DNA from: Cytophagaceae bacterium
Lineage (GTDB): Bacteria > Bacteroidota > Bacteroidia > Cytophagales > Spirosomataceae
Direction: 5' to 3'
Length of the DNA: 61,564 bases
NCBI GenBank assembly: GCA_947494535.1
Contig: CANLVU010000003.1
Coordinates: forward strand, 1-61,564
The notes beneath the pieces are model-generated. The model was not told where the DNA came from. It saw only the letters and a program-made list of their open reading frames with translations, and did not search any database. The translations under genes were made by a program, and so were the position numbers. Within the stretch, counting starts at the first letter, position 1. Every line of letters begins with the position of its first letter. Positions 7,294 to 29,149 of the stretch are shown here, one piece after another.

Positions 7294-7333
7294 TCCTCTC
7301 TTTTTCAGTTTTCGCTCAGGAACCTGATTTTCA

Positions 7334-7615: not shown

Positions 7616-7910
7616 TTATAAAGTAGGTAACGATTTTGCTACAAAGCGACGTTAATTAGTAGCCAATGGATGCTTTTTGATCAATTTTGAAAAGACAGTA
7701 TAGCATACTTATTACTTATAAAAATGCCAAAAAAATGTATATAATTTTAGAAAATAACAATTTTGTTATATATTTGGTCACAATTTGGTAACAAATAGTA
7801 CTAACAAATAATCGTATGTTTCATTTTTTAAACTTAAGAAAGGAGGGCACTTAGAATTATTTAATTAAAAGATTAACCATTTTTCACATTTTCTAACAAA
7901 AAACAATTTT

Positions 7911-10900: not shown

Positions 10901-11090
10901 TTCTCTTGGTAAGAAACTTGGTTTAGACAATGCTCAAATTTATTTACAAGCACAAAATTTAGCAACGTTTACTAAGTATTCAGGACTTAACCCTGAAATC
11001 CAAACTGGAGCTGATAATACAATTGGTTTTGATGGTGGTTATATGCCAGTATCAAAAACTTTTATTTTAGGTCTTAACCTTGGATTTTAA
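7911..11090 (+). CDS. SusC/RagA family TonB-linked outer membrane protein
   Basis: Signal peptide, carboxypeptidase-like domain (ITGKVVAAKDGDGIPGASVIVKG), plug motif NEVVVTGYGSQ, SASSIYGSRAANGVVIITTKKG, C-terminal beta-barrel ending in F. Confidence 0.97.
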   Translation: MKNKLLTQLLGVFAVLVLFLGSHAASAQGNKITGKVVAAKDGDGIPGASVIVKGSKSGVASDANGNFTISAESNSILTVSSVGFSSQDVKLGSQTSITVRLAEESSTLNEVVVTGYGSQSKRAITGAVTTVDAKDLQAVPATTFAQQLQGRASGVTIVNDATPGGNATVRIRGFGTIGNNDPLYVIDGTPTENQGNLNPNDIETIQILKDASASSIYGSRAANGVVIITTKKGKTGAPKITFSSYYGTQNVANDVQSLNAKELGQYLYLADKYAGKTPSHGQYTFGSNGEVSIPDYVFPSAGKNGSAGVDPKLYSLTPDNIYAITKAADTYWWGAMTQSAPIMNYQLSASGATENSKYALSLGMFSQEGVVKFIGYDRYTLRSNTEFSAINKRLRVGENFTVAIDNRRGGFGNNEEQNAVSGSYKHHPLLPIFDIAGNFAGSRGANLGNNSNPYATLAREADNRRYGMRAFGNVYAEFDIVEGITAKTSFGIDATTSNGKYLGRANPEYVEGSFNNGSTSNTSYDYQWVWQNTVSYTKTFNDVHKIDAYVGLESIKAFGEYFGAGRNGYAFEIPSIMGYLDLGDPTRVSNYGSVGNDYTLSSQFGKFNYAYGDKYLFQAIVRNDASSRFLSASRNALFPAFSLGWRLSEESFMKDQLTFVNDLKLRFGWGKTGNQKIGNYNAYTTYRSNIFNAGYPIDGSQTTPAIGYDANAFGNPNAKWETTTSTNFGLDAALLDNHLTVELDVWNRVTSDMLFTTPITFTAGDARAPAFNVGQMTNKGVDLGISYKNSVGDLRYAISGNLSTYTNNVDKLDASPNTRFFGYGSRVPAVTLTQAGLPLSSFFGYQVLGIFQSDEEAKAWAPYENYNKAGKFKYADINGDKKITDADRTIIGSPHPDFTYGLNLNLGYKAFELTVFANGSQGNSIFNYTRFFSDFNSFQGNRSKRALYEAWQPTNKGGTVPIMDANDQVSSRPSSYFLEDGSYLRIKNVQLTYNLPRSLGKKLGLDNAQIYLQAQNLATFTKYSGLNPEIQTGADNTIGFDGGYMPVSKTFILGLNLGF

Positions 11091-11160
11091 TTAGTAATTC
11101 ACTGTAATACAGTTTATTATAAAGTTTGAACATTGTTAAATTTTTAATAAAAACAAAAAT

Positions 11161-12954
11161 ATGAAACGCAATAATATTTTAAAAATGTTCTTGTCAGCTG
11201 GTATCGTGTTAGGAATTGCTACTGCATGTAGCGATGAATTCTTAACTCTTCAGCCGCAAGCTCAATACAGCCCAGCAGCCTTGCAAACGGCTAAGGGTGT
11301 TGAAGGAGTACTTATCGGTGCTTATTCTATGCTTGATGGTCAAGGTTTAGATGGCCAAGCTCCTTGGGAGAATGATATCCAAAGCTGGGTATTTGGTGGT
11401 TTAACTTCGGATGATGCGTACAAAGGAACAGATGCGGGTGATCAACCGGAGCAATCTTTCCTTGAGACTTGGGATTTCCAAGCAACGAACGGTCACATTA
11501 AGAACAAATACAGAGGTTTGTTCAAAGGTGCTGCTCGTGCAAACGATGCGATCAATACATTGAAAAATGTAAAGGATATCACTCCTGAACGTGCTGCTCA
11601 AGTAAAAGCTGAAGCTCAATTTTTGAGAGCCTTGTTTCATTTCGAAGCTAAGAAAATGTTTAAAAACATTCCTTACATTGATGATGCAATTTTTAATTTG
11701 AATGATCTTCAGTCAACTAAAGTTCCAGTTGATCCACAAGCGTGGACTAAAATTGAGAACGATTTAAAGGCTGCTGCTGCTGTATTACCTGATAAGCAGT
11801 CGCAAGTGGGTCGTCCTACTAAGTGGGCTGCTAAAGCTTTATTAGCTAAGGCATACATGTTCCAAGGTTGGAATATTGCTACTGGTGCTGCTAATGCAGC
11901 TAAGTTAGGAGAAGCTAAAACAGTTTTAGAGGAAATCGTTAACAGTGGTAGATTCAAATTGGTAGATCTTTACAGAGATAACCATGATGCTAGCACTCGT
12001 AACAATGCTGAATCAATTTTCGAAATTCAGTATGCTTCTTCTTCAGCTAATGCTGATGCTGCTAACGCAGGTGTGGGTCTTGCTCACCCTTACGCTTCAC
12101 CTTGGGGATGTTGTGGTTTTTACCAACCGTCTCAAAACTTGGTAAATGCACACAAAACTGAGAATGGATTACCAATGTTCGATACATTCAATAACAGTGA
12201 TGTAACGAATGATCAAGGTTTAAAATTAGAGGATCCTTTTACTCCATATACTGGTGAATTAGATCCACGTTTAGATCATAATGTTGGTCGTAGAGGTATC
12301 TTATTCCTTGATTACAAAATTCACAATTTTGACTTTATCCGTGATCAAACTTATGCGGGTCCATACTCACCTAAGAAGCACATTCCATCGAAAGCATTTA
12401 CTGGAATCAATGGTTGGGGTAACTTAACTTCTAACAACTATAGAATCTTGCGTTACAGCATGATCTTATTATGGTTAGCTGAGGTTGAGGTTGAAATCGG
12501 TAGTTTAGAGAAAGCACGTGCATTGGTTAATCAAATCAGAACTCGTGCGGCTAATCCAGCTGGTTTTGTTCAAAAAGCTACTCAAGGAGCAACTCGTGAT
12601 GCATACAAATTAGAGTTCACTGCAAGTGGTGCTCCAGTTCCTGCTGCAAATTATGTAATCAAAAATTACACTGCTGCATGGAGTGATAAAGATGTTGCTC
12701 GTAAAGCAGTTCGTTTTGAGACACGTCTTGAATTTGCTATGGAGGGACACCGTTTCTTTGACTTACAAAGATGGGGAGTTGCTGCAGAGGTATTGAACGC
12801 TTACAACGCTGTTGAGGCAACTAAGCGTGTATACAAGAAAGGTGCTACTTTCGTAAAAGGTAAGCACGAATTCTTCCCTCTTCCTCAAGAAGCAATTGAC
12901 CAATCTGAGAAAGATGGAAAACCAACTTTAGTACAAGATCCTTCTTACAAATAG
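11161..12954 (+). CDS. SusD/RagB family nutrient-binding outer membrane lipoprotein
   Basis: Lipobox-like GIATACSDEFL; RALFHFEAKKMFKNIPYID; C-terminal RFETRLEFAMEGHRFFDLQRWG; directly downstream of SusC. Confidence 0.96.
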   Translation: MKRNNILKMFLSAGIVLGIATACSDEFLTLQPQAQYSPAALQTAKGVEGVLIGAYSMLDGQGLDGQAPWENDIQSWVFGGLTSDDAYKGTDAGDQPEQSFLETWDFQATNGHIKNKYRGLFKGAARANDAINTLKNVKDITPERAAQVKAEAQFLRALFHFEAKKMFKNIPYIDDAIFNLNDLQSTKVPVDPQAWTKIENDLKAAAAVLPDKQSQVGRPTKWAAKALLAKAYMFQGWNIATGAANAAKLGEAKTVLEEIVNSGRFKLVDLYRDNHDASTRNNAESIFEIQYASSSANADAANAGVGLAHPYASPWGCCGFYQPSQNLVNAHKTENGLPMFDTFNNSDVTNDQGLKLEDPFTPYTGELDPRLDHNVGRRGILFLDYKIHNFDFIRDQTYAGPYSPKKHIPSKAFTGINGWGNLTSNNYRILRYSMILLWLAEVEVEIGSLEKARALVNQIRTRAANPAGFVQKATQGATRDAYKLEFTASGAPVPAANYVIKNYTAAWSDKDVARKAVRFETRLEFAMEGHRFFDLQRWGVAAEVLNAYNAVEATKRVYKKGATFVKGKHEFFPLPQEAIDQSEKDGKPTLVQDPSYK

Positions 12955-12980
12955 TATTTAAGGAAATTTGCTAATTTTTA

Positions 12981-13021
12981 AAGAACAGAGATGGCGTTTG
13001 CTGTCTCTGTTCTTTTTTTTT
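12981..13021 (+). terminator. Rho-independent terminator after susD-like gene
   Basis: AAGAACAGAGA-N12-TCTCTGTTCTT followed by T8. Confidence 0.85.
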
Positions 13022-13051
13022 GCTATTTTTAGTAAATAATTTAGTCCATTT

Positions 13052-16000
13052 ATGAAATTCAATTCCTCTTACCTCAGCCTTTATTTTATTTTGTTTTGTA
13101 GTTTGTTACAAAGCTGTCAAAGTCAAGAAGATAGTTTATTTACTGAGCTCTCAGTTGATGAAACAGGTATTCAGTTTTCGAATAGAATTACTGAAAATGA
13201 CACAATGAACATTCTCACATTTGAATATGTGTACAATGGTGGTGGTGTGGCTTTAGGTGACTTTAATAATGATCAAAAAGTAGATATTTACTTTACCGGG
13301 AATCAGGTCGCTAATCGCTTGTACTTGAATGAGGGTGTCGATAAAAATAATCAACTGAAGTTCAAGGATGTTACTAAACAGGCAAATGTGGCTGGTGAAG
13401 GAAAATGGAATTCTGGGGTAGCTTTGGTAGACATTAATAATGATCATTTGCTTGATATTTATGTCTGTGCTACCGTTAAGAAAGTAGGCAAAGAAAGGGC
13501 AAATATTCTCTATGTTAACCAAGGATTGGATAAACAAGGTGTTCCTAGTTTTAAGAATATGGCAGAGGAATATGGCATCGCTGATACAACACATACGACC
13601 AATGCGAATTTCTTTGATTACGATAATGATGGTGATTTAGATCTTTATGTGGTAGTCGATGAAATGGCAGACATTAATTATCCTAACATGTATCATCCTA
13701 AGGTAAAAGATGGCTCATCTAGATTAACCGACAGATTATACCGAAATGATTACGACCCTAAAACGCGACATGCTCATTTTACAGATGTCTCTAAAGAAGA
13801 AGGGATTTTGATTGAAGGTTTTGGCCTAGGAATTAATATTACAGATATTAATCAAGATGGTTGGAAAGATATCTACGTGACGAATGATTACCTCAGTAAT
13901 GATTTAATGTACATAAATCAACACAAAAATGGTAAGCATACTGGTTTTATCGACCAAGCCGATCTCTATTTTAAGCATACTTCTCATTCTGCAATGGGAA
14001 ATGATGTCAATGATATCAATAATGATGGTTTAGTGGATATTATGGCTGTTGATATGATGGCTGCGGATAACTACCGTAAAAAAATGCTCACCATGGCCAA
14101 TAATTATCAAACATATCAAAATAACGATAAGTTTGGTTACGCTTTTCAGTTTCCCCGAAATACGCTACAGTTAAATCGCGGAAAAGACCCTAAAACAGGT
14201 ATTCCGGCCTTTAGTGAAATTGGTCTGTTTGCAGGTGTTGCTGAAACAGATTGGAGTTGGACGCCCATGGTAACTGATTTTGATAATGATGGACTTCGGG
14301 ATATGATTATAACGAATGGTTTTCCAAAAGATATTACAGATCAAGATTTCATGGTCTATCGTGCTGAAAGCGGAAATGTCGCCGAGCCAAAATACCTTTT
14401 AGAGATGATTTCTTCTGTGAAAATCCCGAATTATGCATTTAGAAATACGGGTAATTTAGGTTTTGAAGATGTTTCTCAAAAATGGGGAATCAAAAATCCC
14501 AGTTATTCTAATGGAGCAGCTTATGCTGATTTAGACAATGATGGTGATTTAGATTATGTGGTTAATAATATCAATGATTCAGCCTCTGTTTACCGTAATA
14601 ATGCCATGCAACTTGCACCGGAAAAAAGCCATTTTCTTCGTGTTCAACTGAAGGGTTCGGATCAAAATATTCACGGAATTGGGGCAAGCATACAAATTAA
14701 ATACAATAAAAATCAACTACAATTTTATGAATGTACGCCCTACAGGGGGTATTTATCTACTATTGAATCTATTGCGCATTTTGGTTTAGGTGAAAGCAAA
14801 GAGATAGATGAATTGAAAATTAGTTGGCCAAATGGGAAGCAACAAATTTTAAGGCATCTGAAAGCTAATCAGGTGATCACTTTGGAAGAAAAAAATGCGC
14901 AACCCTATTTACCTAATTCGGTGAAGTCACCTACTTTATTCACAGAAGTGAGCGATCAACTGAACCTACTGTATAAGCACATTGAAGACGATGCCATTGA
15001 TTTCAATAATCAAAAATTGCTGCCCCACAAATTCTCTCAACAAGGCCCCTGTCTTGCTGTAGGAGATGTTAATGGGGATTTAATCGAAGACGTGTTTATA
15101 GGCGGGTCTAGTAAGCATAAAGGCAATTTTTTGATTCAAGATAAGAATGGAAACTTCAAGTCTATGGATCTACTTTCTGGTAAAGAAGGTTTTACTAAAA
15201 GTCAAGAGGACATGGGTGCATTGCTTTTTGATGTGGATAATGATCGAGATTTAGATTTATACTTAGTAAGTGGGAGTAATGAATTACCCTTACTGGATCC
15301 AGGTTACCAAGATCGAATATTCATCAATGATGGCAAAGGGCATTTTACCGAGAATAATTCCATCTTGCCCGCATTTGCTAAAAGTGGTTCCTGTGTGAAG
15401 GCAGTCGATTTCGACCACGATGGTGATCTAGATCTGTTTGTTGGAAATAGAGTTGAACCTGGTTTTTACCCGAGACCTGTGAGTAGTTATCTATTGAGGA
15501 ATGAATTTCCAAAATTGAAATTTACGGATGTGACGAATCAGATCGCACCTGAATTAAATAAAATCGGGTTGATCTCTGACGCTTTATGGTCAGATACGGA
15601 TAATGATGGCTGGCAAGATTTGATTTTGGCAGGTGAATGGATGCCAATTAAAATCTTAAAAAATGAGAAAGGCAAATTCAAATCGATTCAATCGACGGGA
15701 ATTGAACACAAATCGGGTTGGTGGAATAGTTTAGCTGCTGGAGATTTTGACAATGACGGCGATATGGATTATGTGGCTGGGAATTTAGGCCAAAACACCT
15801 TGCACCGAGCAAGTGATGACACACCAGCCAAAATATACGCCGCAGATTTCAATGGAGATGGTACTTTTGATGCCATTCCAACGGTGTATTTTAAAGACCC
15901 AAAAGGAAAGAAAAAAGAATTTCCGTTCAATACGAGAGACGATTTGGCTAAACAATTTATACAGATTAGAAAAAGATTTGATAACTATGCCAAATTTTCC

Positions 16001-16642
16001 GTCGCAGGTATAAATGATGTGTTAACCAAGGAGGAATTGGGTAAAGCCTTGGTTTTAGAAGCTAATTGGATGAACTCTAGTTATATAGAAAATCTAGGTA
16101 AAGGGAAATTCAGAATTTTCGCCTTACCTCGATTAGCCCAAGTTTCACCTGTATTAGCGATCCAGGTTCAGGATTTTGATGAAGATGGCAACTTGGACAT
16201 GGTATTAAGTGGAAATGATTACGGCAACGAAATAAGTACAGGTCGATTAGATGCATCTAAAGGTTTGTTTTTGAAGGGAAATGGTCAAGGGAAATTTAGA
16301 GAGATTCAGTTAGGGCAAAGTGGTTTGAATTTTGATGGAGATAGTAAAGCTTTGGTCAAAATCAAGTCGAGTAAAGGAAATTTGCTTTTAATGAATTCGC
16401 AAAATCTTGGACCACTAAAAACTTACGCTTTGAATAAACCAGCGAAAGATTTTTTAGTAGATAAAGAGGAGTTTTCGGCCATTTTAACGTTAAAGAATGG
16501 CAAGAAAAGAAGAGAGGAATTTCCTTTAGGGAATACACACATGTCGCAAAATAGCCAAAGGATATGGCTGAATGGCAGTATTCTCCAAGCGGAAATGTTC
16601 AATCAAAAGCTAAAGCGGACCAGAAGCGTTTCTAATTTGTAA
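13052..16642 (+). CDS. VCBS/FG-GAP repeat protein, CRTAC1-like, with ASPIC/UnbV-like segment (lipoprotein)
   Basis: 1196 aa; lipobox-like LLQSCQS; many DxDxDGxxD repeats (DYDNDGDLDLYV, DFDNDGDMDYVAGN); ASPIC/UnbV-like GLGESKEIDELKISWPNGKQQ. Confidence 0.88.
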   Translation: MKFNSSYLSLYFILFCSLLQSCQSQEDSLFTELSVDETGIQFSNRITENDTMNILTFEYVYNGGGVALGDFNNDQKVDIYFTGNQVANRLYLNEGVDKNNQLKFKDVTKQANVAGEGKWNSGVALVDINNDHLLDIYVCATVKKVGKERANILYVNQGLDKQGVPSFKNMAEEYGIADTTHTTNANFFDYDNDGDLDLYVVVDEMADINYPNMYHPKVKDGSSRLTDRLYRNDYDPKTRHAHFTDVSKEEGILIEGFGLGINITDINQDGWKDIYVTNDYLSNDLMYINQHKNGKHTGFIDQADLYFKHTSHSAMGNDVNDINNDGLVDIMAVDMMAADNYRKKMLTMANNYQTYQNNDKFGYAFQFPRNTLQLNRGKDPKTGIPAFSEIGLFAGVAETDWSWTPMVTDFDNDGLRDMIITNGFPKDITDQDFMVYRAESGNVAEPKYLLEMISSVKIPNYAFRNTGNLGFEDVSQKWGIKNPSYSNGAAYADLDNDGDLDYVVNNINDSASVYRNNAMQLAPEKSHFLRVQLKGSDQNIHGIGASIQIKYNKNQLQFYECTPYRGYLSTIESIAHFGLGESKEIDELKISWPNGKQQILRHLKANQVITLEEKNAQPYLPNSVKSPTLFTEVSDQLNLLYKHIEDDAIDFNNQKLLPHKFSQQGPCLAVGDVNGDLIEDVFIGGSSKHKGNFLIQDKNGNFKSMDLLSGKEGFTKSQEDMGALLFDVDNDRDLDLYLVSGSNELPLLDPGYQDRIFINDGKGHFTENNSILPAFAKSGSCVKAVDFDHDGDLDLFVGNRVEPGFYPRPVSSYLLRNEFPKLKFTDVTNQIAPELNKIGLISDALWSDTDNDGWQDLILAGEWMPIKILKNEKGKFKSIQSTGIEHKSGWWNSLAAGDFDNDGDMDYVAGNLGQNTLHRASDDTPAKIYAADFNGDGTFDAIPTVYFKDPKGKKKEFPFNTRDDLAKQFIQIRKRFDNYAKFSVAGINDVLTKEELGKALVLEANWMNSSYIENLGKGKFRIFALPRLAQVSPVLAIQVQDFDEDGNLDMVLSGNDYGNEISTGRLDASKGLFLKGNGQGKFREIQLGQSGLNFDGDSKALVKIKSSKGNLLLMNSQNLGPLKTYALNKPAKDFLVDKEEFSAILTLKNGKKRREEFPLGNTHMSQNSQRIWLNGSILQAEMFNQKLKRTRSVSNL

Positions 16643-16679: not shown

Positions 16680-17414
16680 TTAAGTTCTAAATTGATAAAT
16701 AACGGAATAGCTGGAGTTCTTTCCATCCGAAGACTTAACTCTGAAATAGTAAATTTTCCCAGTTGTAACGGGCACATCTACGCTGCTAGCAGTGATATTT
16801 GTGAATTGTGCGGTAGGTGTTTGTTTCCCATCCACTAAGTCAACAAAAAGGGTATAAGTTAGGGGATCAGATTCAGGATCGCTTCCTTTCCAGCTGACCG
16901 TTACTTTTCCATTAGTAATCGTTGCGTAAATAGATGCCGTTGGGGCTGTGATTTCAGCTGGGTAAGGCGCATAATTAACAATGGAAGCACCAGCGAGGTA
17001 AAAATTCCAAGATTCGCTGGAAGCTGTTGCTGTCGTTTTAGTGGATTTTGAAATTACCTTCCAAGAGTAAGGCGTTGCTTTATTTAAAGTAACTTTTTGG
17101 CTTGCAGCCGCTATGTTCGAAATGGTTTGTACCGCATTCGTATTCAAATCCGTCACGAGTAAATCATAACTCTCTGTATTTGTACCAGCTGCCCAAGCGA
17201 AGTTGATTTCTGCTTGATTGGTAGAAATGGATACCCCAGACTCACAGATTTTATTTTTTTCTGGTAACGACAAGCTAGCCGCCGTGGGTGGATTTACGGT
17301 AGGGGTAGGGGGTGGATTAGGGGTAGGTGCAGGGGCAGGATCCCCTCCACCGCCTCCACAGGCTGCTAATCCCCATACTAATACCAAAGCAATGAATCGA
17401 TTGAAGTTTGACAT
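16680..17414 (-). CDS. Lipoprotein with Gly/Pro-rich linker and fibronectin type III-like domains
   Basis: MSNFNRFIALVLVWGLAACGGGGGDPAPAPTPNPPPTPTVNPP (lipobox LAAC), then FN3-like repeats (TPYSWKVISKS, KIYYFRVKSSDGKNSSYS). Starts 4 bp after the RCC1 gene stop. Confidence 0.72.
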   Translation of the reverse strand: MSNFNRFIALVLVWGLAACGGGGGDPAPAPTPNPPPTPTVNPPTAASLSLPEKNKICESGVSISTNQAEINFAWAAGTNTESYDLLVTDLNTNAVQTISNIAAASQKVTLNKATPYSWKVISKSTKTTATASSESWNFYLAGASIVNYAPYPAEITAPTASIYATITNGKVTVSWKGSDPESDPLTYTLFVDLVDGKQTPTAQFTNITASSVDVPVTTGKIYYFRVKSSDGKNSSYSVIYQFRT

Positions 17415-17418
17415 AATT

Positions 17419-20400
17419 TTATTGCTTACTAATTTTTAACGTCTTGTTTACATGCGATCCTGATACCTGAATAACATAAGTTCCAGCATCCATTTTAGAT
17501 AAATCATAGGTGACTATTCTCGAATGATCGAGATCGCGCGACTCATCCAGGATTGTTTTTTCTAAGGAATAAATCAAAATTCGAACGGATGGATCTGAAC
17601 CTGGAACATAGATCGAGACCTTACCTGAAGTCGGATTCGGGTATGCGTGTGCTTGCTCGGAGATGAAGATCTCTTGGTCGAACGTGCCTTGGCATCCTAA
17701 ATCAGTAGAAACACTAATTTTATTCAATCCAGTTGAAAGTACTTTCGAATAAGTAGCCCCATTTACTTTTTCTGTAACCCCGTTAACTGAAATAGAATAG
17801 GATTCAGAACCCGATAAATTCAATACCAAGGTATTCGAATTCGGATTGAATGTGCTATTAGTTTTCAGTGCCGCTGGTTCGGTGATGATGACATCAAAGC
17901 ATTGTTCGTAGCCTTCTTTACCTAACACTTGAATGCAAACAGAATAGGTATCTTTTGCTAAACCAGAGATGTTTAAGGCTGCCGTTTCGGTCGTATTGTA
18001 AGTAAATTGTTTTGAGTAGCCAGAAGCAGAACCTACCGCTTTAATTAAGTAGTTGTAGTTTTTATTCGCGAAGGCAATTTGGATAGATCCATTATTTGAA
18101 CCCACGCAGGTAGCTGATCCCATTCCAATCGTGTAATTCTTCGCAGGTAGATTAAAGATTTCGCAACCATTCGCATCAATAATCGCACCAAGGGTGGTAT
18201 TGTTACATTTGTCTGCGTTATCCTTAATTCCATCCCCATCTGTATCAGCTAGTTCGTATTTCACGACTAAAGCAGATGAATTAGCGATACACCCGAACGG
18301 ACTCGTCACACTCACCGTATAGGTTCCATCGTTCTGAGGAATGTATTCAGCTGCAGTAGCTCCTGTAATGACAGCCCCATCCTTAGACCATTGGTATTTC
18401 GCCCCCGTCACCACTGGTACCTTCAAGGCATATGTTTTAGTGTCAGTTAAATTAAAGACGAAAGTAGATCCCGTAGTTGAAATGGTCGCATCAGGCAACG
18501 GATTAACGGTAACGGCTGTCGACTCAGAAGTGGACACATCGCCTATTGGGTAGGTAACCGTCACAAAGTAATTGCCCGTAGTGTTTGCCGTGATAGATCG
18601 AGTCTTCGCCCCCGTTGACCACGTATAAGACAGTCCACCATCAGAGGCAGTTAACACTACACTTCCACCTGGGCAGAAGGTTTTTTTGCCAGTATTTACA
18701 ATCTCTACAATCGGTTTTGCCAAAGTAGGGTTGTAATAAAAGGCTTTCCCATCGCCTAATTCTCCGTATAAATTAAGGCCCCATGACCAGAGTGATCCAT
18801 CTGATTTCAATGCTAAAGTATGGTAGCCTCCTGTCGAAATATCTTTCCAATCGCTTTCAGGGCCAATTTTAGTAGGTGTATATTTGTCACTGATACTTTC
18901 ATCGCCAAGTTGACCATAGTAATTACTTCCCCAGCCCCATATACTACCATCCGTTTTTAGAAGCATTTTGTGGTAGGATGAAAATGAGAATGACAATTTG
19001 TTTATGTTATTTATATTGATAAGGGTAGGAGTGTTTTTGTTTATGGTAGTACCATCTCCTAACTCACCGTTAACATTATAGCCCCATGCCCATAAAGTGC
19101 CATCTTTCTTTATTGCATAGGATTGGTTATAGCCTGATTCTATGGCTGACCAATCGGAAGCAGTACCTATTTGAATTGGAGTATTAGAATTTGTATTGTT
19201 TCCATTACCCAACTGTCCATATAAGTTATACCCCCATCCCCATAGTGTTCCGTTGGATTTTAATCCAACAGCAAAACCTGACCCAGCAGATATTGAAACC
19301 CAATCAGAACTATTACCGATTTGAATTGGGGGGGTAGTGGAATTAGTGGTAGTTCCGTTTCCTAATTGTCCATTCAGATTATTTCCCCAGGCCCATAATG
19401 TACCATTTTTCTTAATGGCATAGGAAGACTGGTACCCTGAATAAACAGATGCCCAGTCAGTTGCGGTTCCTATTTGTGTAGGAATGTACTTTGGGGAAGT
19501 GGTGCCATCTCCTAATTGTCCAATTTGATTAGCTCCCCAAGCCCATAGCGTGCCATCCTTTCTTAATGCAAGAGTATTAGCAGCACCAATTGATACTGAT
19601 TGCCAATTTGTATTAGTGCCTATTTGAACAGGAACATCTAAATTTCTGTCCTCCCCATTTCCTGCCTGGCCTGAAGTATTCAATCCCCAAGACCATAGTG
19701 TGCCATCTTTTTTAATAGCGGCAGAACGGTATAAAGTTGTATATATTTTCTCCCAGGTCAGATCAGTGCCTACTTGTCTCATATTGGTTTTATAGGAAAA
19801 ATTACCTTTCCCTAGTTGACCTGAACTATTAAAGCCCCATGAAAATAGATTATTTTGTTTATCAAGTGCCAATACGTGGCTAGAACCAACGGCTGCTGAT
19901 CTCCAATTAGTAGCATTTCCAATTTGTGTCAAACCATTGTAATTGCTTGAATTACCTTGGCCTAGCTGACCAAAAGAATTGGAGCCAACCCCCCAAAGTG
20001 TTCCATTCGATTTGATAGCTAAACTTGTGGATCCTGAAGGTGGAACGTATAAATTAGCCCAATTCGAATCAGTACCTACTTGAGTTGGATTCAAGACAAT
20101 ACTCAATGAAGAATTAACAAATCTATTGTATGTATTAACTCCCCAGCCCCAAATTGTTCCATCCGTTTTCAAAGCGAATGCATAATTATTTCCACTTTCG
20201 ATTAATCCCCAGTCTGTTGAATTACCTATTTGAGTTGGTATATTTCTATCGACAGTTGATCCATCTCCTAATTGGTTTAAGCTATTTTGACCCCAGGCAA
20301 AAAGTTGTCCATTGGATTTGATTGCATAAGAACTATTTCCACCGGTTGAAATAGAGACCCAATCAGTATCTGTACCAATTTGTGTAGGAGATAGTAATGT

Positions 20401-23400
20401 CGAAGAATTTCCAATACCTAATTGTCCATTTAAATTATATCCCCATGCCCAAATTGTTCCATTCGTTTTGAGCGCAAGACTGTGGTTAAACCCTACAGAA
20501 ATGGATTCCCAATCAGTAGCTACCCCAATTCTAATCGGAACTAATGATTCAGTTATAGCAGCATCTCCAAGCCCTAAGTATCCATTGGATCCATTTTGTC
20601 CCCAACCCCATAAGCTACCATCTTTTTTAATAGCGATGGTGAAACTACTCGTTGTAGCCACCATTTTCCAATCATTTGCTGTCCCTACTTGAACAGCAAT
20701 GCTTTGGTTGATTTTATTGCCTATTCCCAGTTGACCTAAGCTATTATTTCCCCAAGCCCATAAAGTACCATTTGGTTTAATCAGGAAGCTGCTATTAGAT
20801 CCAGCGAAAACTTTAGCTGGCGTGAGCGTATCAGACAAAGCATAGGTAACAGTTTGCGAAACAGATGAAGAAACGCAGCCAAACGTATTCGTGACATTTA
20901 CCGCATAGGTGCCATTCTTTTTAGGCACGTAATTATTCGAGATAGCTCCAGGAATAGCAACCCCATTGTTAAGCCATTGATACGAAACTCCCGTCGTAGA
21001 AGGCACCGTTAGCTTATAAGTTTTTAGATCCTCTAAACGATTCACAGTCATCGAACCAGTGGTGCTAATCGTCGTACTAGGTATGGCTGGAATAACATAA
21101 GGATCAGAAGTGCTGACATCACCTATTGGATAAGTGACTGTGACACTATAAGAACCACCCGTAGTAACGGTGATGGATCTTGTGGTGGCGCCGGTAGACC
21201 AAGTGTACGAAAGTCCACCCTCTGAGGCTGTTAATACACCACCACTGCTTCCTGCACAGAATGTTTTTCTTTCTGAGGCAGTGATATCCACGATTGGTTT
21301 TGCCAAAGTAGGGGTGTAGAAAATTGATTTGCCATCCCCAAGTTGCGCATAGTATTTACCACCCCAAGCCCATAGACTTCCATCAGATTTGATTGCAAGC
21401 GAATGATATCTACCCGCAGCTATATCTGTCCAATCAACATCGGTTCCTAATCTTTGGGGAATATTTTTATTAATTACAGAACCATCTCCTAATTGACCAT
21501 CTGCATTATTTCCCCATGTCCACAGGCTACCATCTGACTTCAAGGTCATTGTGTGATCTGATAGCATTGAGGCCGGCCATTTATTAGTATTAGTAATGGC
21601 TAATTGAGTGGGCACATTTTTGTTAATATTTGTCCCGTCACCAAGTCCCCCTTCTATATTATTACCCCAAAGCCAAACAGTCCCGTTCTTTTTAATGGCC
21701 AATGAGCTATTATAACCAGCTTGAATATGTGCCCAGTCGCTTGCATTCCCCACTTGCGTAGGTGCAACCATATTAGTTGTATTTCCTAATCCCAGTTGAC
21801 TAAAATTATTTAATCCCCAGGCCCAAATGGTTCCATTCGATTTTAAGGCCAAAATATGGCCTGAACCGGCAGAAATGGCTGTCCAATCAGAGGCTGATCC
21901 TATTTGAATTGGAGTGGAAGAAGTGATCGAGAAAGTGCCTGAGACTATATTTCCCCAAAACCAGATTGTTCCATTTGTTTTCACACCAACAGAATGAGTA
22001 AGTGCGGTTGATATCGTTTTCCAATCGGTAGCAGTACCGATTTGAATAGGAGTAGTCCGTTGGATAATTGTACCATCACCTAGTTGACCCTCGATATTCC
22101 TTCCCCAACCCCATAGACTTCCATTGGCTTTTATGGCAAGAGTATGGTAAGCACCTAAAGATACATATTTCCAATCTTTTCCTGTTTCCACCTGTATTGG
22201 AATATCAACATTAGTAGTTGATAAACCATCTCCTAATTGCCCATATCTATTTCTTCCCCACATCCACAAGCTTCCATCTTTTTTGATTGCAGCGGAATGA
22301 ACACTTCCAGCAAATACTTTTTCCCAGCTAAAATCATTACCAACTTGTCTAGGAGCGGCAATGTAATTATTTCCTTTTCCTAGTTGTCCACTCACATTAT
22401 CACCCCAAGAATAAAGGTTATTGAGATTGTCGAGTGCTAAAGAATAGGAAGCCCCTTGTGCTAAAGATCTCCAAGAGTTACTGGTTCCTATTTGCGTGAA
22501 TGAAGTAGCGTTATTAGTATTTCCTTGTCCAAGTTGACCTGAAAAGTTGTTTCCAGTAGACCAAATGGTACCATTTGCTTTTAGGGCAAAGCCATGATTG
22601 TTTGATAAACTAACGTTGGTCCAGCTTTGATCTGTACCTATTTGTATAGGTTCTGAAACATTTTCTAAGGTCCCATTCCCTAATTGGCCATCGGAATTTA
22701 ATCCCCAAGCCCATAAACTTCCATTTGTTTTAAGTGCAAGAACACTAAAATTACTGCCTTTAATCATCCCCCAATCAGTTGAATTACCAATTAAAGTAGG
22801 GATGTTTTTTGAAACAGTAGTTCCATCCCCTAGCTGCCTCGATGAATTTTGCCCCCAAGCGTACAGACTTCCATTATTTTTAATGGCATAGGAACTATTT
22901 CCACCTGTTGTGATGGAACCCCAATCGGTATCTGTACCAATTTGTGTAGGACTTATCAAGGTTGTGGTATTTCCATTACCTAGTTGTCCGTTAAAATTAT
23001 ATCCCCACGACCAAATGGTTCCATTGGTTTTGAGCGCAATTATATGGTTAAACCCTACAGTAATAGATTCCCAATCAGAAGCTACTCCAATTCTAATGGG
23101 AACTATTGACTCTGCAATAGTGCCATCACCCAGTCCTAGGTACCCAGTCGATCCATTGATACCCCAACCCCATAAACTTCCATCATTTTTAATAGCGATA
23201 GTAAAAAGACTTGAGGAAGATACCATTTTCCAATCGCTCGCGGTTCCCACCTGCACAGCGATACTTTGGTTGATTTTATTACCTATTCCCAGTTGTCCAT
23301 TGCTATTATTTCCCCAGGCCCAGAGTGTCCCATTTGGTTTAATCAAGAAGCTACTAGTAGATCCAGCAAAAACAGTAGAAGGCGTGAATGTTTCTGATAA

Positions 23401-26400
23401 GGTGTAGGTGACGGTTTTCGAAATAGATGAAGAAACGCAGCCAAATGTATTCGAGAGCGTTACTGAATACAAACCATTCTTTAGAGGTACAAAAGAATTT
23501 TTTGTTGCACCTGGAATGGCTACACTATTATTATACCATTGATATGTAGTTGCTGTCGCTGAAGGTACCGTTAGCTTATAGGTTTTTAGATCCTCTAAGC
23601 GATTAACAGTCATGGAACCTGTTGTGCTTAAAGTTGTGTTTGGCCGTGGAGGAATAACTACTGGCTCTAAATTTGCAAAATCTCCCATCGGATAGTACAC
23701 CCTACCATCATAGGTTCCTGATGTATTTACCGTAATTGAACGTGTTGTTGCGGCCGTAGACCAGAGATAGCTTAAACCTTCGGAGGCGGTTAAAACTAAG
23801 CTACCATTTGCACAATAATTGGATCTGTCTGAAATGTAGATTCTTGCAATAGGTTTTGCTTCTGATGGAGAGAAGTTAAAATCCGTTCCTTGGCCTAATT
23901 GACCAAATAAATCATTTCCCCATGACCAAAGAGATCCATTGTTTTTAATCGCCATGGAGTGGTATCCACCTGAGGCAACATCTCGCCAATCGACCTCTGT
24001 CCCCATTTGACCAGGAACATTTTTATCGACAGTCGTCCCATCTCCTAATTGTCCGTAATAATTGTATCCCCATGACCAAAGCGTGCCATCATTTTTTAGA
24101 ACGAAGTTGTGACCTGAGTTCATGGTGATGGGCCATTTAGCTACATTAGTAAGCGTAATTCTTGTAGGAATGTTTTTATCCACATTCGTTCCATCGCCTA
24201 GCTGACCTTCAACGTTATATCCCCAAGTCCAAACCGACCCATCTCTTTTCATTGCGGTGGATTGGTCAAGCCCTACTTGAACAGACGCCCAATCGGTATC
24301 CGTCCCTATTTGTATCGGAATATTCGAATCAGTGTAATTTCCATTACCTAATTGACCTAAATCATTTGAACCCCATGCCCATAGAGTGCCATTTGCTTTT
24401 AAACCAAGAACATGGACGTCTCCCACTGAAATAGCCACCCAGTCAGTAGCGGTGCCCATTTGTCTAGGAATTAAGGATGTGGCGGTATTTCCACTACCCA
24501 GTTGTCCATAACTATTCCATCCCCAAGACCACAGCGTTCCATTTTGTTTAATCGCATAGGAAGAGTTATAGCCTGTTTTAATCATTTTCCAATCAGCTTC
24601 TGCACCTATTTGGACTGGGACAGAAGAATTAGTCGTGGTGCCATCTCCTAATTGACCAGAAGAGTTACTACCCCAGCCCCAGATTGTTCCATTTGATTTT
24701 AAACCCAATGAGTGAAAACGCGCCAGAGAAATTGCTTTCCAATCGGTACCATTCCCTACAATTGTAGGCAATGGGTTATTTAAGGTTGTTCCATTACCTA
24801 ATTGACCTGTATTATTTCTTCCCCAAGTCCATAGTGTACCATCTTTTTTTATTCCACCAGAATGGTAGAAACCTGCGTACACTTTATCCCAATCTTGACC
24901 AGTCCCAATTTGGCGTATATTGGTATTGAATGAAAATTCACCTTTATTTAAGGACCCATAAAGGATAGAACCCCACGAGTAAAGTTTGTTTTGATTATCC
25001 AGTGCTAATGTGGCAAATTTACCAGATGCGACTGAGCTCCAATTAGCGTTATTCCCTATTTGTGTAAATATTCCTAGGTTTATATTGGTACCGTTTCCTA
25101 ATTGACCATAGGTGTTTACTCCAGTACCCCAAAGCGTCCCATTTGTTTTTAAGGCTAAAGTAGAAGTTCCATCAGCTGTGATTGAAAAATCACTCCAGTT
25201 TATATCCGTACCAATTTGTGTAGGCGTTAAGGTTAAGGGTGTAAAGTTATTTCCTAAGCTTCCATCGCTACCATATCCCCAGCCCCACAAGCTACCATTC
25301 GTTTTTAAGGCAATAGCAAAACCTCCACTACCACCACCATTCACTTTTTTCCAATCTGTAAATACACCTATTTGAGTAGGAACACTTTTATTAGTTCTAG
25401 TACCATCACCCAATTGTCCATTCCCATTAAGTCCCCAGGCCCACATGCTACCATTGGATTTAATGGCGTAGCTAGAAAAGTTTGTTGAAGCAATTGATTC
25501 CCAATCTGTAGAAGTACCTACTTGGGTAGGTAAATTTTTAGGGGTAGAGGTTCCATCGCCTAAGCTGCCATATAAATTATAACCCCATGCCCACAGTGTT
25601 CCATTTGATTTAAGGGCTAAAGTATGGTTAGTTCCAGCAGACACCGATTTCCAATCATTGGCGGTTCCTATTCTAACCGGAACTAGAGACTCAGTTATAC
25701 CTGTATTTCCAATGCCTAGATATCCATTGCTTCCGTTATATCCCCATGCCCATAGGCTACCATCTTTTTTTAATCCAATGGTAAAACTGATCGAGTGAGA
25801 AACCATCTCCCAGTCAGAATCTGTGCCTACTCTTATGGCATAATTTCGATTAATCTTGTCGCCTAAACCTAATTGCCCGTAGTTATTAAGACCCCACGCC
25901 CATAAAGTGCCATCTGCCTTAATTTGAAAACTTGAATTCGAGCTAGCAAAAATCTTAGGTTTCGCGTTAGTGGTTGCGGCAAATAATTGAGTAGGGGTGG
26001 GTGTGTATCCAAATTCACCGATACCTAATTGACCATTTAGGTTGTTTCCCCATGCCCAAAGGCTGCCGTCTGTTTTTATGGCAAAGGTACTAGATGAGGG
26101 GCCTACGTAAACTTTATCCCAATTAGTATCAGTACCTACTCTGGTCCCTGTTAAATTATTAATATTCGTGTTGTTACCTAAATTTCCGTACTCATTTTTT
26201 CCCCACATATAAAGTGAACCATCATTTTTAATCGCAGCGGAATGATTAAGGCCTGATGAAATGTATCTAATAGTGTTTATTATTGATATCTGGGTAGGGG
26301 AATTAATTTGTAAAGTTGCAGAGGGGTCAAATCCAAGATTACCATAATTGTTTCGACCCCATGAGAAGATATTTCCGCTTGAATTTAAGGCGATTGTACC

Positions 26401-28161
26401 TTCGTAATTGGTTGAGACTGCTGTCCAATTTGTCTGAGTACCAATTCTTTGTGGACTGGAATAATTTATTGTCGAATTCAAACCTAAGTAACCTGAACTA
26501 TTTTCACCCCAACCCCAGAGAGTACCATCTGTTTTTAACCCAATACTAAAGTTGTAGTTTGGCCCTATACTTTTCCAGTTTCCATCAGTTCCTATTTGAG
26601 TGGGAATTAATATCGAATTATTTGATGAATTTAAACTTTTGCTATAATTACTTCCCCATCCCCAAAGGGTGCCATTTGATTTAATTGCATAAACATTAGA
26701 TCCAAGTCCATAAATTTTGTCCCAATTATTATCTGTTCCAACTTGAGCTATTGTATAGTTGTCGTTTGCAAGTGTTCCATCAGCGGTACCATTTCCTAAA
26801 GTCCCCATCCAATTAGACCCCCAGGTCCAAAGAGTTCCGTCTGTTTTTATTGCTGCTACACTATACCACAATGTTACAACAGATTTCCAATTAGTCGCTG
26901 TACCTATTTGTACTGGGATATTTGAACTTATGCTATTGTTTCCATAAATTCCATTATTATTTTGTCCCCAAGCCCACAATGTGCCATCTAACTTAATTCC
27001 AAATGTAGTACTTCCACCTTGGGAAATCTCCTTCCATACCAAACTACTAGTGACCTGAACGGGTATTTTTTTAAATGCGTCTTGATTTAGGCCCAATAAA
27101 CCATTTTGATTAGATCCCCAAACCCAAATACTTTTATCTGATTTTACTCCTAAAGAAGCATTAGCTCCAGCAAAAATATCCATCCAGTTTAATCCATTTC
27201 CTATTTGGGTAGGCTGGTTAGTTCGACTTCCAACTATCTGAGCACTTCTTCCATAGCTGTTACTACCCCAAGCCCATAAAGAGCCATTGGATTTTAAAGC
27301 AAATGAAATATCTGAGCTGGCAGAAATCTTTGTCCAATTATTGTCACTACCAATTCGTACAGGTAAAAGTTGTGTACTAAACGTACTAGATCCAATACCC
27401 ACTTGACCACTAGTGTCTCTACCCCATGACCATAAACTCCCATCCTGTTTGATTGCTAAAGCATGGTATGCACCTAAGTCTACCATTTTCCAGTCTGTAT
27501 CTGAATTGATTTGAATGGGCACATTAGAATTTACATTGCTGCTATTAACAAAAAATTGGCTCTCTCCATTATACCCCCATGCCCAAAGAGTGCCATTCTG
27601 TTTTAAGGCTATAGTCGTAGAATTGTTTAAAGTTACACTTGACCAGTTTGTATCTGTACCTAATTGTGTAGGAACTGCTTTTGTAACATTTGTACCATCT
27701 CCTAGCTGTCCATTATTGTTATAACCCCAGTTCCAAATAGTGCCATTTGATTTTACTCCCACAACAATAGCACCATTCGTTGCAATTGATTTCCAATTGG
27801 TGTCTGTTCCTACTTGACCAGGTATTAACCTTTGCGTTTCTGCCGAGTTATTATTTCCAAAAAGATTTACATTATTCCTTCCCCAAACCCATAAAGAGCC
27901 ATCTTTTTTAATGCCAAATGATATATCGTACCCTGTAGCTACCGCAATCCATTTTGTTTCCGGTAAAATATTTACGGGTGCATTTCGATTCGTTGTTGTC
28001 CCATCTCCTAATTGCCCCGATGAATTAAGGCCCCAAGCCCACAGGCTGCCATCTTCTTTAATAAGTAGAGTATGGCTTCCTTCGGAAGAAACTATTTGGC
28101 CACTAGAAATATGGCTGAAGAATAAAATAATAGTTATTAAAAGGAAGTAAATTCTTTTCAT
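17419..28161 (-). CDS. Giant secreted RCC1-repeat protein (3580 aa) with Ig-like linkers, TSP3-like repeat and T9SS C-terminal sorting domain
   Basis: Signal peptide MKRIYFLLITIILFFSHISSG; about 56 repeats of form LWAWGxNxxGQLGdGt...P.qIGtdtdWxxisaG..hslAlKsnGt; DTDGDGIKDNADKC; C-terminal AYPNPTSGKVSIYV...DLSKMDAGTYVIQVSGSHVNKTLKISKQ. Confidence 0.93.
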   Translation of the reverse strand: MKRIYFLLITIILFFSHISSGQIVSSEGSHTLLIKEDGSLWAWGLNSSGQLGDGTTTNRNAPVNILPETKWIAVATGYDISFGIKKDGSLWVWGRNNVNLFGNNNSAETQRLIPGQVGTDTNWKSIATNGAIVVGVKSNGTIWNWGYNNNGQLGDGTNVTKAVPTQLGTDTNWSSVTLNNSTTIALKQNGTLWAWGYNGESQFFVNSSNVNSNVPIQINSDTDWKMVDLGAYHALAIKQDGSLWSWGRDTSGQVGIGSSTFSTQLLPVRIGSDNNWTKISASSDISFALKSNGSLWAWGSNSYGRSAQIVGSRTNQPTQIGNGLNWMDIFAGANASLGVKSDKSIWVWGSNQNGLLGLNQDAFKKIPVQVTSSLVWKEISQGGSTTFGIKLDGTLWAWGQNNNGIYGNNSISSNIPVQIGTATNWKSVVTLWYSVAAIKTDGTLWTWGSNWMGTLGNGTADGTLANDNYTIAQVGTDNNWDKIYGLGSNVYAIKSNGTLWGWGSNYSKSLNSSNNSILIPTQIGTDGNWKSIGPNYNFSIGLKTDGTLWGWGENSSGYLGLNSTINYSSPQRIGTQTNWTAVSTNYEGTIALNSSGNIFSWGRNNYGNLGFDPSATLQINSPTQISIINTIRYISSGLNHSAAIKNDGSLYMWGKNEYGNLGNNTNINNLTGTRVGTDTNWDKVYVGPSSSTFAIKTDGSLWAWGNNLNGQLGIGEFGYTPTPTQLFAATTNAKPKIFASSNSSFQIKADGTLWAWGLNNYGQLGLGDKINRNYAIRVGTDSDWEMVSHSISFTIGLKKDGSLWAWGYNGSNGYLGIGNTGITESLVPVRIGTANDWKSVSAGTNHTLALKSNGTLWAWGYNLYGSLGDGTSTPKNLPTQVGTSTDWESIASTNFSSYAIKSNGSMWAWGLNGNGQLGDGTRTNKSVPTQIGVFTDWKKVNGGGSGGFAIALKTNGSLWGWGYGSDGSLGNNFTPLTLTPTQIGTDINWSDFSITADGTSTLALKTNGTLWGTGVNTYGQLGNGTNINLGIFTQIGNNANWSSVASGKFATLALDNQNKLYSWGSILYGSLNKGEFSFNTNIRQIGTGQDWDKVYAGFYHSGGIKKDGTLWTWGRNNTGQLGNGTTLNNPLPTIVGNGTDWKAISLARFHSLGLKSNGTIWGWGSNSSGQLGDGTTTNSSVPVQIGAEADWKMIKTGYNSSYAIKQNGTLWSWGWNSYGQLGSGNTATSLIPRQMGTATDWVAISVGDVHVLGLKANGTLWAWGSNDLGQLGNGNYTDSNIPIQIGTDTDWASVQVGLDQSTAMKRDGSVWTWGYNVEGQLGDGTNVDKNIPTRITLTNVAKWPITMNSGHNFVLKNDGTLWSWGYNYYGQLGDGTTVDKNVPGQMGTEVDWRDVASGGYHSMAIKNNGSLWSWGNDLFGQLGQGTDFNFSPSEAKPIARIYISDRSNYCANGSLVLTASEGLSYLWSTAATTRSITVNTSGTYDGRVYYPMGDFANLEPVVIPPRPNTTLSTTGSMTVNRLEDLKTYKLTVPSATATTYQWYNNSVAIPGATKNSFVPLKNGLYSVTLSNTFGCVSSSISKTVTYTLSETFTPSTVFAGSTSSFLIKPNGTLWAWGNNSNGQLGIGNKINQSIAVQVGTASDWKMVSSSSLFTIAIKNDGSLWGWGINGSTGYLGLGDGTIAESIVPIRIGVASDWESITVGFNHIIALKTNGTIWSWGYNFNGQLGNGNTTTLISPTQIGTDTDWGSITTGGNSSYAIKNNGSLYAWGQNSSRQLGDGTTVSKNIPTLIGNSTDWGMIKGSNFSVLALKTNGSLWAWGLNSDGQLGNGTLENVSEPIQIGTDQSWTNVSLSNNHGFALKANGTIWSTGNNFSGQLGQGNTNNATSFTQIGTSNSWRSLAQGASYSLALDNLNNLYSWGDNVSGQLGKGNNYIAAPRQVGNDFSWEKVFAGSVHSAAIKKDGSLWMWGRNRYGQLGDGLSTTNVDIPIQVETGKDWKYVSLGAYHTLAIKANGSLWGWGRNIEGQLGDGTIIQRTTPIQIGTATDWKTISTALTHSVGVKTNGTIWFWGNIVSGTFSITSSTPIQIGSASDWTAISAGSGHILALKSNGTIWAWGLNNFSQLGLGNTTNMVAPTQVGNASDWAHIQAGYNSSLAIKKNGTVWLWGNNIEGGLGDGTNINKNVPTQLAITNTNKWPASMLSDHTMTLKSDGSLWTWGNNADGQLGDGSVINKNIPQRLGTDVDWTDIAAGRYHSLAIKSDGSLWAWGGKYYAQLGDGKSIFYTPTLAKPIVDITASERKTFCAGSSGGVLTASEGGLSYTWSTGATTRSITVTTGGSYSVTVTYPIGDVSTSDPYVIPAIPSTTISTTGSMTVNRLEDLKTYKLTVPSTTGVSYQWLNNGVAIPGAISNNYVPKKNGTYAVNVTNTFGCVSSSVSQTVTYALSDTLTPAKVFAGSNSSFLIKPNGTLWAWGNNSLGQLGIGNKINQSIAVQVGTANDWKMVATTSSFTIAIKKDGSLWGWGQNGSNGYLGLGDAAITESLVPIRIGVATDWESISVGFNHSLALKTNGTIWAWGYNLNGQLGIGNSSTLLSPTQIGTDTDWVSISTGGNSSYAIKSNGQLFAWGQNSLNQLGDGSTVDRNIPTQIGNSTDWGLIESGNNYAFALKTDGTIWGWGVNTYNRFVNSSLSIVLNPTQVGTDSNWANLYVPPSGSTSLAIKSNGTLWGVGSNSFGQLGQGNSSNYNGLTQIGNATNWRSAAVGSSHVLALDKQNNLFSWGFNSSGQLGKGNFSYKTNMRQVGTDLTWEKIYTTLYRSAAIKKDGTLWSWGLNTSGQAGNGEDRNLDVPVQIGTNTNWQSVSIGAANTLALRKDGTLWAWGANQIGQLGDGTTSPKYIPTQIGTATDWASVYSGYQSSYAIKKNGTLWAWGNNLNGQLGNGTTTNSTTPPIQIGNSSDWVSISAGSGFAVGLKSNGTLWGWGYNLYGQLGNGNNTNSNTPIQIGTASDWSAIESGYNQSYAIKKDGTLWAWGYNVNGELGDGTTINKNTPTLININNINKLSFSFSSYHKMLLKTDGSIWGWGSNYYGQLGDESISDKYTPTKIGPESDWKDISTGGYHTLALKSDGSLWSWGLNLYGELGDGKAFYYNPTLAKPIVEIVNTGKKTFCPGGSVVLTASDGGLSYTWSTGAKTRSITANTTGNYFVTVTYPIGDVSTSESTAVTVNPLPDATISTTGSTFVFNLTDTKTYALKVPVVTGAKYQWSKDGAVITGATAAEYIPQNDGTYTVSVTSPFGCIANSSALVVKYELADTDGDGIKDNADKCNNTTLGAIIDANGCEIFNLPAKNYTIGMGSATCVGSNNGSIQIAFANKNYNYLIKAVGSASGYSKQFTYNTTETAALNISGLAKDTYSVCIQVLGKEGYEQCFDVIITEPAALKTNSTFNPNSNTLVLNLSGSESYSISVNGVTEKVNGATYSKVLSTGLNKISVSTDLGCQGTFDQEIFISEQAHAYPNPTSGKVSIYVPGSDPSVRILIYSLEKTILDESRDLDHSRIVTYDLSKMDAGTYVIQVSGSHVNKTLKISKQ
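18740..25910 (-). repeat. Three tandem intragenic superunits of 14 RCC1 repeats each (about 2.0 kb) separated by about 0.5-kb Ig-like linkers
   Basis: Superunits approx 23870-25910, 21330-23335 and 18740-20780. Units align one to one, e.g. unit 1 GQLGIGNKINQSIAVQVGTA(S/N)DWKMV in two copies and GQLGLGDKINRNYAIRVGTDSDWEMV in the third. Confidence 0.85.
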
Positions 28162-28321
28162 AGTTTTGCAAACAGATTTGGATTATAAAAATAAAAAATT
28201 GAATTTAATTAATGAAGGGATATTTATTTAACGGTCAAATTGTTAGCCTCTGAAATTCTGATGATTAGGAGCTGGGTAGAAATACAGTAGACTTGTGTAC
28301 TTTTGGTTAAAATTATATTTT

Positions 28322-29149
28322 ATGAAAAATAAATTATCCTTAATCGCTCTAATTTTTCTTGCCCATTTTACTGGGTTTGCACAAAATTCATCTACAGACT
28401 TTTTGAATAATTATTTTTTCAAACAAGTTCCATTGATTAATAACACTTTCAAATTTGAATTAGCTAAAGTGGTAATGGGTAATACTACATTTACCACTTA
28501 TGATAATTATGATGAAAATAATAGGCGTAGTGGGATAGCTAGTTTACCTGAAATTTTAGATGTTGAAGATTTTACTTTTTATGGAGTGAAGCCTAATATT
28601 AAAATTCAAGATACTACTCGGTTTAATCGATTAGTTACCGCAAATACGAAGGAGTGGTTTAATGCCAAAATGCCTAAAGTGGAGGTTTTAAAAAATAAAT
28701 TGGTGACAATTTCATACCCAGATTCTACAGAGGAGTCTTTTTTATTAAATGTAAAACAGCCTTCCATTGAGGATGACAATAACAATAAAAGGAAAATTTT
28801 GCAAATGGAATTAGCCAATGAAGAAGTAAAGGCTGATGGTTCAAATAATACTGCTAGGGATATTGTTTGGCGGTTTTTCGTTATTTATAATGACTGTTAT
28901 TTGGCATTAAGTAAGAAGCAATTAGAAAGGCTTAAGGTTCGTATATTTTCTTCAACTGAAGGAGTCTTACTTTTAACAAATGATGGGGAGGAGGAGTTAA
29001 TATCCCAGCAGAATTTTAATTACCATGAGGAAAGTAAAACTTCTGGCAATGGGTTATATATTGGCAGAGATAAAGATCCATTTATGGACTCAGGTTATTA
29101 CATTGACCCTGAAAATATGATCTTTTTATTCAAAATTAAACAAAACTAA
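28322..29149 (+). CDS. Secreted hypothetical protein
   Basis: ORF 28295-29149. The internal ATG at 28322 gives signal peptide MKNKLSLIALIFLAHFTGFAQ. No family recognised. Confidence 0.6.
   Translation: MKNKLSLIALIFLAHFTGFAQNSSTDFLNNYFFKQVPLINNTFKFELAKVVMGNTTFTTYDNYDENNRRSGIASLPEILDVEDFTFYGVKPNIKIQDTTRFNRLVTANTKEWFNAKMPKVEVLKNKLVTISYPDSTEESFLLNVKQPSIEDDNNNKRKILQMELANEEVKADGSNNTARDIVWRFFVIYNDCYLALSKKQLERLKVRIFSSTEGVLLLTNDGEEELISQQNFNYHEESKTSGNGLYIGRDKDPFMDSGYYIDPENMIFLFKIKQN

Follow-up and report, generated by a model that had tools for sequence, protein, structure and literature searches.

A giant RCC1-repeat protein with a conserved C-terminal module and an adjoining lipoprotein gene: a candidate arrangement for tethering type A cargoes of the T9SS

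Outside Porphyromonas, the surface retention of a type A T9SS cargo, as opposed to its release, is a question that one locus in the 61,564-nucleotide stretch of DNA analysed here (the window, from a Cytophagaceae bacterium) bears upon. The gene in question, P0001, encodes a giant T9SS cargo of 3580 aa at positions 17419-28161. The first-pass annotation of this DNA had described a single uninterrupted ORF of 10.7 kb, and its coordinates proved to be exact; the gene lies on the minus strand, where there is no internal stop, and the plus strand of the same interval has many. The features of the giant, of the gene that follows it and of the T9SS genes in the window are as follows, in order of position.

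16680-17414, minus strand: cognate lipoprotein gene P0003, 244 aa, its start 4 bp downstream of the stop codon of the cargo gene
17422-17643, minus strand: T9SS type A sorting domain (TIGR04183), aa 3507-3580
17650-18138, minus strand: conserved C-terminal module of two FN3/Ig-like beta-domains, aa ~3342-3504, with Cys3352 and Cys3490 invariant
18139-18252, minus strand: TSP3-like segment of Ca-binding type, DTDGDGIKDNADKC...NGC, aa ~3304-3341, its D/C pattern conserved in alignments of relatives
18253-18723, minus strand: Ig-like region after RCC1 block 3, aa ~3147-3303, its likeness to linkers 1 and 2 judged by inspection
18724-20823, minus strand: RCC1 block 3, 14 units, aa ~2447-3146
20824-21291, minus strand: Ig-like linker 2, aa ~2291-2446, which resembles linker 1
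21292-23385, minus strand: RCC1 block 2, 14 units, aa ~1593-2290
23386-23874, minus strand: Ig-like linker 1, aa ~1430-1592, with no RCC1 unit, which resembles linker 2; Ig call by inspection
23875-28092, minus strand: RCC1 block 1, 28 units without a linker (u1-14 and u15-28), aa ~24-1429
28099-28161, minus strand: putative signal peptide MKRIYFLLITIILFFSHISSGQ, about aa 1-21, of classic pattern (translation inspected by eye)
51302-52339, plus strand: PorP/SprF-family protein (TIGR03519, 194.6 bits)
52489-56911, plus strand: gldK, gldL, gldM and gldN, the T9SS ring and motor of the exporter core (TIGR03525, TIGR03513, TIGR03517 and TIGR03523, all above cut-off)

The RCC1/T9SS architecture of the giant ORF is far beyond chance. 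A search of the 3580-aa ORF with RCC1 (Pfam PF00415) gave E=0 and 1282 bits over 52 stretches, above the curated cut-off, and the RCC1 part is also matched by RCC1_2 (55 stretches) and by WD40_RLD (2190 bits). About 56 units had been estimated at first pass, and the LWxWG-motif anchors, after the removal of two false anchors and the inclusion of one missed unit, number exactly 56 with a spacing of 46-55 aa. These are divided into 28 units (aa ~24-1430), 14 units (aa ~1596-2285) and 14 units (aa ~2450-3143), and the same 28/14/14 division was reproduced independently by HMM segmentation of the units. The Ig-like linkers that had been described are present between the RCC1 blocks at about 155 aa each, with the Ig assignment made by inspection, while the TSP3-like segment holds as a likeness but falls below the cut-off of Pfam TSP_3 (11.4 bits against 25).

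The proposal that this protein is a T9SS substrate is supported both by its sorting domain and by the presence of T9SS core genes in the window, and the type can be given as A. In particular, TIGR04183 matches aa 3507-3580 with 23.2 bits against a cut-off of 23, a narrow pass, and is the sole NCBIfam sorting-domain match; the corresponding Pfam sorting domain, PF18962, remains under its cut-off (22.9 bits against 27). No type B sorting domain (TIGR04131) was found in the giant, nor is there a PorP/SprF-family gene directly downstream of it, this position being taken by an FN3-like lipoprotein gene without an NCBIfam match. A type B cargo with a PorP/SprF partner was rejected on these two grounds. 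The porP/sprF-like gene and gldKLMN, which had been reported from the same window, are indeed found there (51302-56911, all above the NCBI cut-offs); because they belong to a separate gene block at a distance of more than 20 kb, they say little beyond the fact that the genome has a T9SS. From these signals, the predicted export of the giant by the T9SS is well supported. The block beside the giant at 2153-16642, which contains a GH13-like amylase, SusC-like and SusD-like genes and an FG-GAP/ASPIC-UnbV protein of 1196 aa, has the appearance of a locus for the utilisation of starch or glycans, and a divergently oriented ORF of 284 aa that adjoins the giant at 28295-29149 has no match in Pfam or NCBIfam.

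More than anything else at the locus, it is the module in front of the sorting domain and the lipoprotein gene downstream that are informative, and the first-pass annotation had missed both. The module, a conserved segment of about 165 residues, is part of a longer tail of about 280 C-terminal residues, composed of the TSP3-like segment, the module with its two beta-domains and the sorting domain, which is common to the window protein and to NHL and DUF1501 cargoes at 39% identity. An AlphaFold model of the 300-residue tail has a pLDDT of 89.6 (about 90-97 over the module), and the best PDB fold matches of the predicted module are FN3 tandems. The protein encoded by P0003 has a lipobox (...GLAAC19), a GGGGGDPAP tether, two FN3-like domains and one thiol, Cys57; from the lipobox and the G/S/D-rich stretch after the cysteine, a candidate export signal, we infer a position at the outer surface. 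Homologues of this lipoprotein are found in 27 of 38 genomes of the genus, a few of the matches being to the signal peptide alone. All 21 full-length homologues with upstream sequence lie directly behind a gene with a type A-like sorting tail, and the junction between cargo and lipoprotein genes in the genus is usually a 4-base ATGA overlap.

The association of module and lipoprotein extends across Bacteroidota and holds in both directions. Used alone as the query against 396 Bacteroidota genomes, the module gave 26 matches of at least 26.9 bits, mostly from one family of the same class, and a lipoprotein gene adjoins every one of them. When the same 396 genomes were searched with the lipoprotein alignment, 29 matches of at least 100 bits were obtained, well apart from ordinary FN3 domains; 28 of the 29 are preceded by a module gene and the last is a decayed remnant, counts that must be read with the understanding that related genomes are not independent and that most of the phylum-wide pairs come from one family. 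(For two lipoproteins beyond the 26 module matches, a module gene was seen in front of each on inspection.) This two-way linkage rules out a chance adjacency of the lipoprotein. When a pair is defined as a module before a type A sorting domain, with a lipoprotein gene within a few bases on the 3' side, the window and 49 other pairs are obtained.

The cargoes that carry the module are diverse. Across Bacteroidota, they include alpha-amylase, pectate lyase/pectinesterase, reprolysin-type peptidase, NHL, beta-helix, sortilin-type propeller, LRR, GSDH/Rax2 propeller, ricin and laminin lectins, and a GH42-like enzyme. DUF1501 proteins of about 700 aa predominate among the cargoes of the genus pairs, the exceptions being one giant with NHL, FG-GAP and cadherin domains and one RCC1 giant (L030). 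At L096:1740-11321, a cargo of more than 3193 aa combines NHL and FG-GAP propellers with cadherin domains, and its tail and partner are of the same kind as those of the giant in the window; at L101:2607-10692, the whole pair of DUF1501 cargo and lipoprotein is duplicated in tandem. RCC1 repeats themselves do not bring the lipoprotein with them. Among 60 RCC1-bearing ORFs in relatives, 27 have a T9SS-like tail and L030 alone has the module and the lipoprotein; the other RCC1 loci of the window's family, checked for both, have neither. Since RCC1 genes without the module have no such neighbour, the lipoprotein was rejected as a partner of RCC1 arrays generally. The genome from which the window comes, a draft of 143 contigs that is ~81% complete, has 11 sorting-domain matches but one module and one lipoprotein.

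Two further candidates were set aside. The tandem genes pep25/lbp26 of F. collinsii are not the same pair, the identifiable gene being polysaccharide-export-like. A 260-aa ORF at L197:3703-4485, in which a partial module is joined directly to a partial, truncated lipoprotein, was considered as a natural fusion of the two; it is probably what remained of a pair after a deletion, and for this reason it is not counted as evidence of contact.

The lipoprotein has diverged together with the module. Across 32 pairs, module and lipoprotein distances are correlated with r=0.87, and the partial correlation is 0.75 when sorting-domain distances are removed; in contrast, the partial correlation between sorting domain and lipoprotein is just 0.32 when module distances are removed. 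It is the contrast between these correlations, rather than their values, that counts, because shared ancestry feeds all of them. Adjacency and correlated distances could also arise from co-inheritance within an operon.

Taken together, the gene pairing, the swapping of cargoes and the co-divergence point to tethering: the pair probably consists of a T9SS type A cargo, here a multi-propeller binding protein, and its own lipoprotein anchor, which would hold it on the surface. The pair thus points to a mode of attachment of secreted proteins to the cell that is as yet undescribed. In such a mechanism, the giant cargo would enter the periplasm through Sec and would then be exported by the T9SS via its C-terminal domain. 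Its 56 RCC1 units would form eight 7-bladed propellers in groups of 4, 2 and 2; the groups, set apart by Ig-like spacers, would make up a long multivalent binding stalk. The module just ahead of the sorting domain would be the docking segment, to be recognised by the FN3-type lipoprotein from the next gene; the lipoprotein, lipid-anchored in the outer membrane, would retain the cargo on the cell against diffusion away. The propeller part would then be one of many exchangeable cargoes.

A different role for the lipoprotein would be that of a dedicated secretion helper, a shuttle or chaperone that takes a sub-class of type A cargoes from the translocon as SprF does for type B, and that is not a permanent anchor. 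The order of the genes matches that of type B systems, in which the gene of the PorP/SprF-like shuttle comes after that of the cargo (PMC12618676), and the correlated divergence of lipoprotein and module is in keeping with a helper as well as with an anchor. However, type A sorting domains are served by PorV, the general shuttle, and their secretion involves no cognate partner (PMC12618676), the partner found here is a small FN3-type protein with no barrel, and it co-varies more with the module than with the sorting domain, so that we regard this role as unlikely. It is also rather improbable that the giant is simply released, as an adhesin or binding protein of the usual T9SS kind, with an independent lipoprotein that sits in the operon for regulation only. 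Many type A cargoes do go into the medium, and the CTD of AmyB released its cargo in F. johnsoniae (PMC12618676), but such an arrangement is at odds with the near-perfect two-way linkage over unrelated cargoes in several families and with the absence of the lipoprotein beside RCC1 or sorting-domain genes that lack the module.

If the lipoprotein is indeed a surface anchor, the pattern of invariant cysteines offers a candidate for the link itself. All 50 modules have two invariant cysteines, equivalent to aa 3352 and 3490 of the giant; a further cysteine pair in the module is, strictly, either present as a whole or absent as a whole. Each of the 50 lipoproteins has the lipid cysteine and one further invariant cysteine, and in 48 of them the mature protein contains no cysteine beyond these two. 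In exported proteins, a single invariant thiol is classically taken to indicate a bond to a second protein, and on this basis the lone invariant cysteine of the exported lipoprotein suggests an inter-protein disulfide. There is a precedent for such bonds within the T9SS machinery of Flavobacterium, where inter-protein disulfides join SprF to GldK and PorG to GldK (PMC12635249). It is possible, and we propose it only tentatively, that cargo and lipoprotein are covalently linked by a disulfide at the surface, in which case the two cysteines of the module could be the donor disulfide, as has been proposed for SprF-GldK (PMC12635249). Such a disulfide, if real, would be a general covalent tether for many kinds of T9SS type A cargoes.

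An all-against-all comparison of the RCC1 units of the giant identifies u15-28, u29-42 and u43-56 as copies, three in all, of a single 14-unit block, with 54-62% identity in register and about 42% in every other register, whereas u1-14 has no clear register with the other three stretches; no residual 7-unit periodicity was found inside the 14-unit blocks by unit-against-unit comparison. In relatives, with genes drawn from many phyla, RCC1 arrays of 7 units occur 73 times, of 14 units 6 times and of 28 units once, arrays of other sizes being mostly short or divergent fragments, and the window's own family has four further loci with uninterrupted 14-unit arrays together with many arrays of 7. 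It is the overwhelming share of 7s and 14s among the uninterrupted arrays of relatives that gives the unit count its meaning. RCC1 domains of known structure are 7-bladed, and 7-bladed RCC1 domains are also the closest relatives of known structure to the giant, by sequence and by fold. A model of aa 1440-2480, made by AlphaFold with five aligned 14-unit modules, is poor (pLDDT 51.6, pTM 0.39), and a fold search with this low-confidence model places RCC1 domains at the top but with a high rmsd. Known propellers have between 4 and 12 blades (PMC3797127, PMC6805158). With this range and the seven blades of RCC1 domains, 14 units therefore most likely make two rings, and eight 7-bladed propellers are the best reading of the 56 units; the division of each block into two rings rests on the relatives and on the known blade limits, because the block keeps no 7-unit periodicity of its own. 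The estimate of about eight propellers made at first pass is thus sound in its arithmetic (28+14+14 = 8 x 7, with relatives mostly at 7 or 14), the closed rings being a predicted form. That the arrays form no 7-bladed rings, and make instead one 14-bladed ring per 14-unit block, for example, or open superhelices, would suit a duplicated unit of 14 in which no 7-unit repeat is left, but it is highly improbable given the isolated 7-unit arrays of most relatives, the seven blades of known RCC1 structures and the blade range just cited. As RCC1 propellers are typically protein-binding scaffolds, the predicted ligand of the giant is, as a first guess, a protein or glycoprotein.

The description of this multi-propeller design as unusual was an overstatement, since RCC1 proteins with more than one propeller and a T9SS-type tail are also found in Chryseobacterium, and arrays of 14 units occur commonly within the family of the window. 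The genome from which the window comes encodes a second RCC1 giant, L009 (G000:C16:1-8424, minus strand), which is cut by the contig end and has one 14-unit RCC1 array along with beta-helix, Ig-like and C-type lectin domains. A relative of L009 with 3822 aa is found in another genome of the genus (L030:2278-13746), where the lipoprotein follows with an ATGA overlap; the layout of these two proteins also includes an Lcl_C domain. Elsewhere, clusters of adjacent multi-propeller RCC1 genes with a 7-Ig-7-Ig-7 arrangement and T9SS-like tails are present in Chryseobacterium (L050, L051 and L052), two open frames of the same genus as the window, L044 (G013:C3) and L045 (G007:C1), encode 7330 and 6786 aa with weak matches to RCC1-like domains, and a Ruminococcaceae contig (L083) has a 9114-aa open frame in which many divergent RCC1-like units occur in short runs.

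As a sequence signature, the module and the lipoprotein together would predict tethered cargoes, among them amylases, pectinases, peptidases, lectins and giant propeller proteins, and would also point to candidate residues; a likely role is thereby assigned to an unnamed lipoprotein family. The window protein is the extreme cargo, with eight predicted RCC1 propellers in one chain. A literature search, with most subscription papers outside its reach, revealed no account of the paired module and lipoprotein, nor of any RCC1 protein of the T9SS that has a partner of this kind, and the pair is likely, not certain, to be new.

Comparison with known systems shows which parts of this arrangement are shared. 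The giant belongs to the same repeat family as the RCC1-like propellers of UVR8, HERC2, RPGR, RCC1 and the bacterial BLIP-II, as indicated by Pfam RCC1/WD40_RLD and by the best PDB matches, but it differs from these in having 56 units within one secreted polypeptide, linkerless blocks (14 or 28 units each), Ig spacers and a tail of T9SS type. The Chryseobacterium RCC1 proteins (L050-L056) resemble it in their repeated RCC1 arrays with linkers (~100 aa in that case) and in a T9SS-like tail of PNP type; however, they are built as 7-Ig-7(-Ig-7), from 7-unit rather than 14- or 28-unit blocks, and have neither the module nor a cognate lipoprotein gene. In type B systems, such as SprB-SprF and Fjoh_3952-Fjoh_3951, a large surface cargo likewise has its partner, a PorP/SprF-like shuttle, encoded immediately downstream, and these cognate pairs multiply as paralogues (PMC12618676, PMC9143113). 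In contrast, the giant has a type A sorting domain, its partner is a lipoprotein of two FN3 domains rather than an outer-membrane barrel, and many of the cargoes are enzymes. The type A cargo of P. gingivalis has the same type of sorting domain and is also held at the surface, where it is linked to A-LPS by the PorU sortase (PMC9143113), whereas the window cargo is accompanied by a dedicated lipoprotein gene. Finally, the SprF-GldK and PorG-GldK disulfides are links to a periplasmic track, whereas the putative bond considered here would join a surface lipoprotein to an exported cargo.
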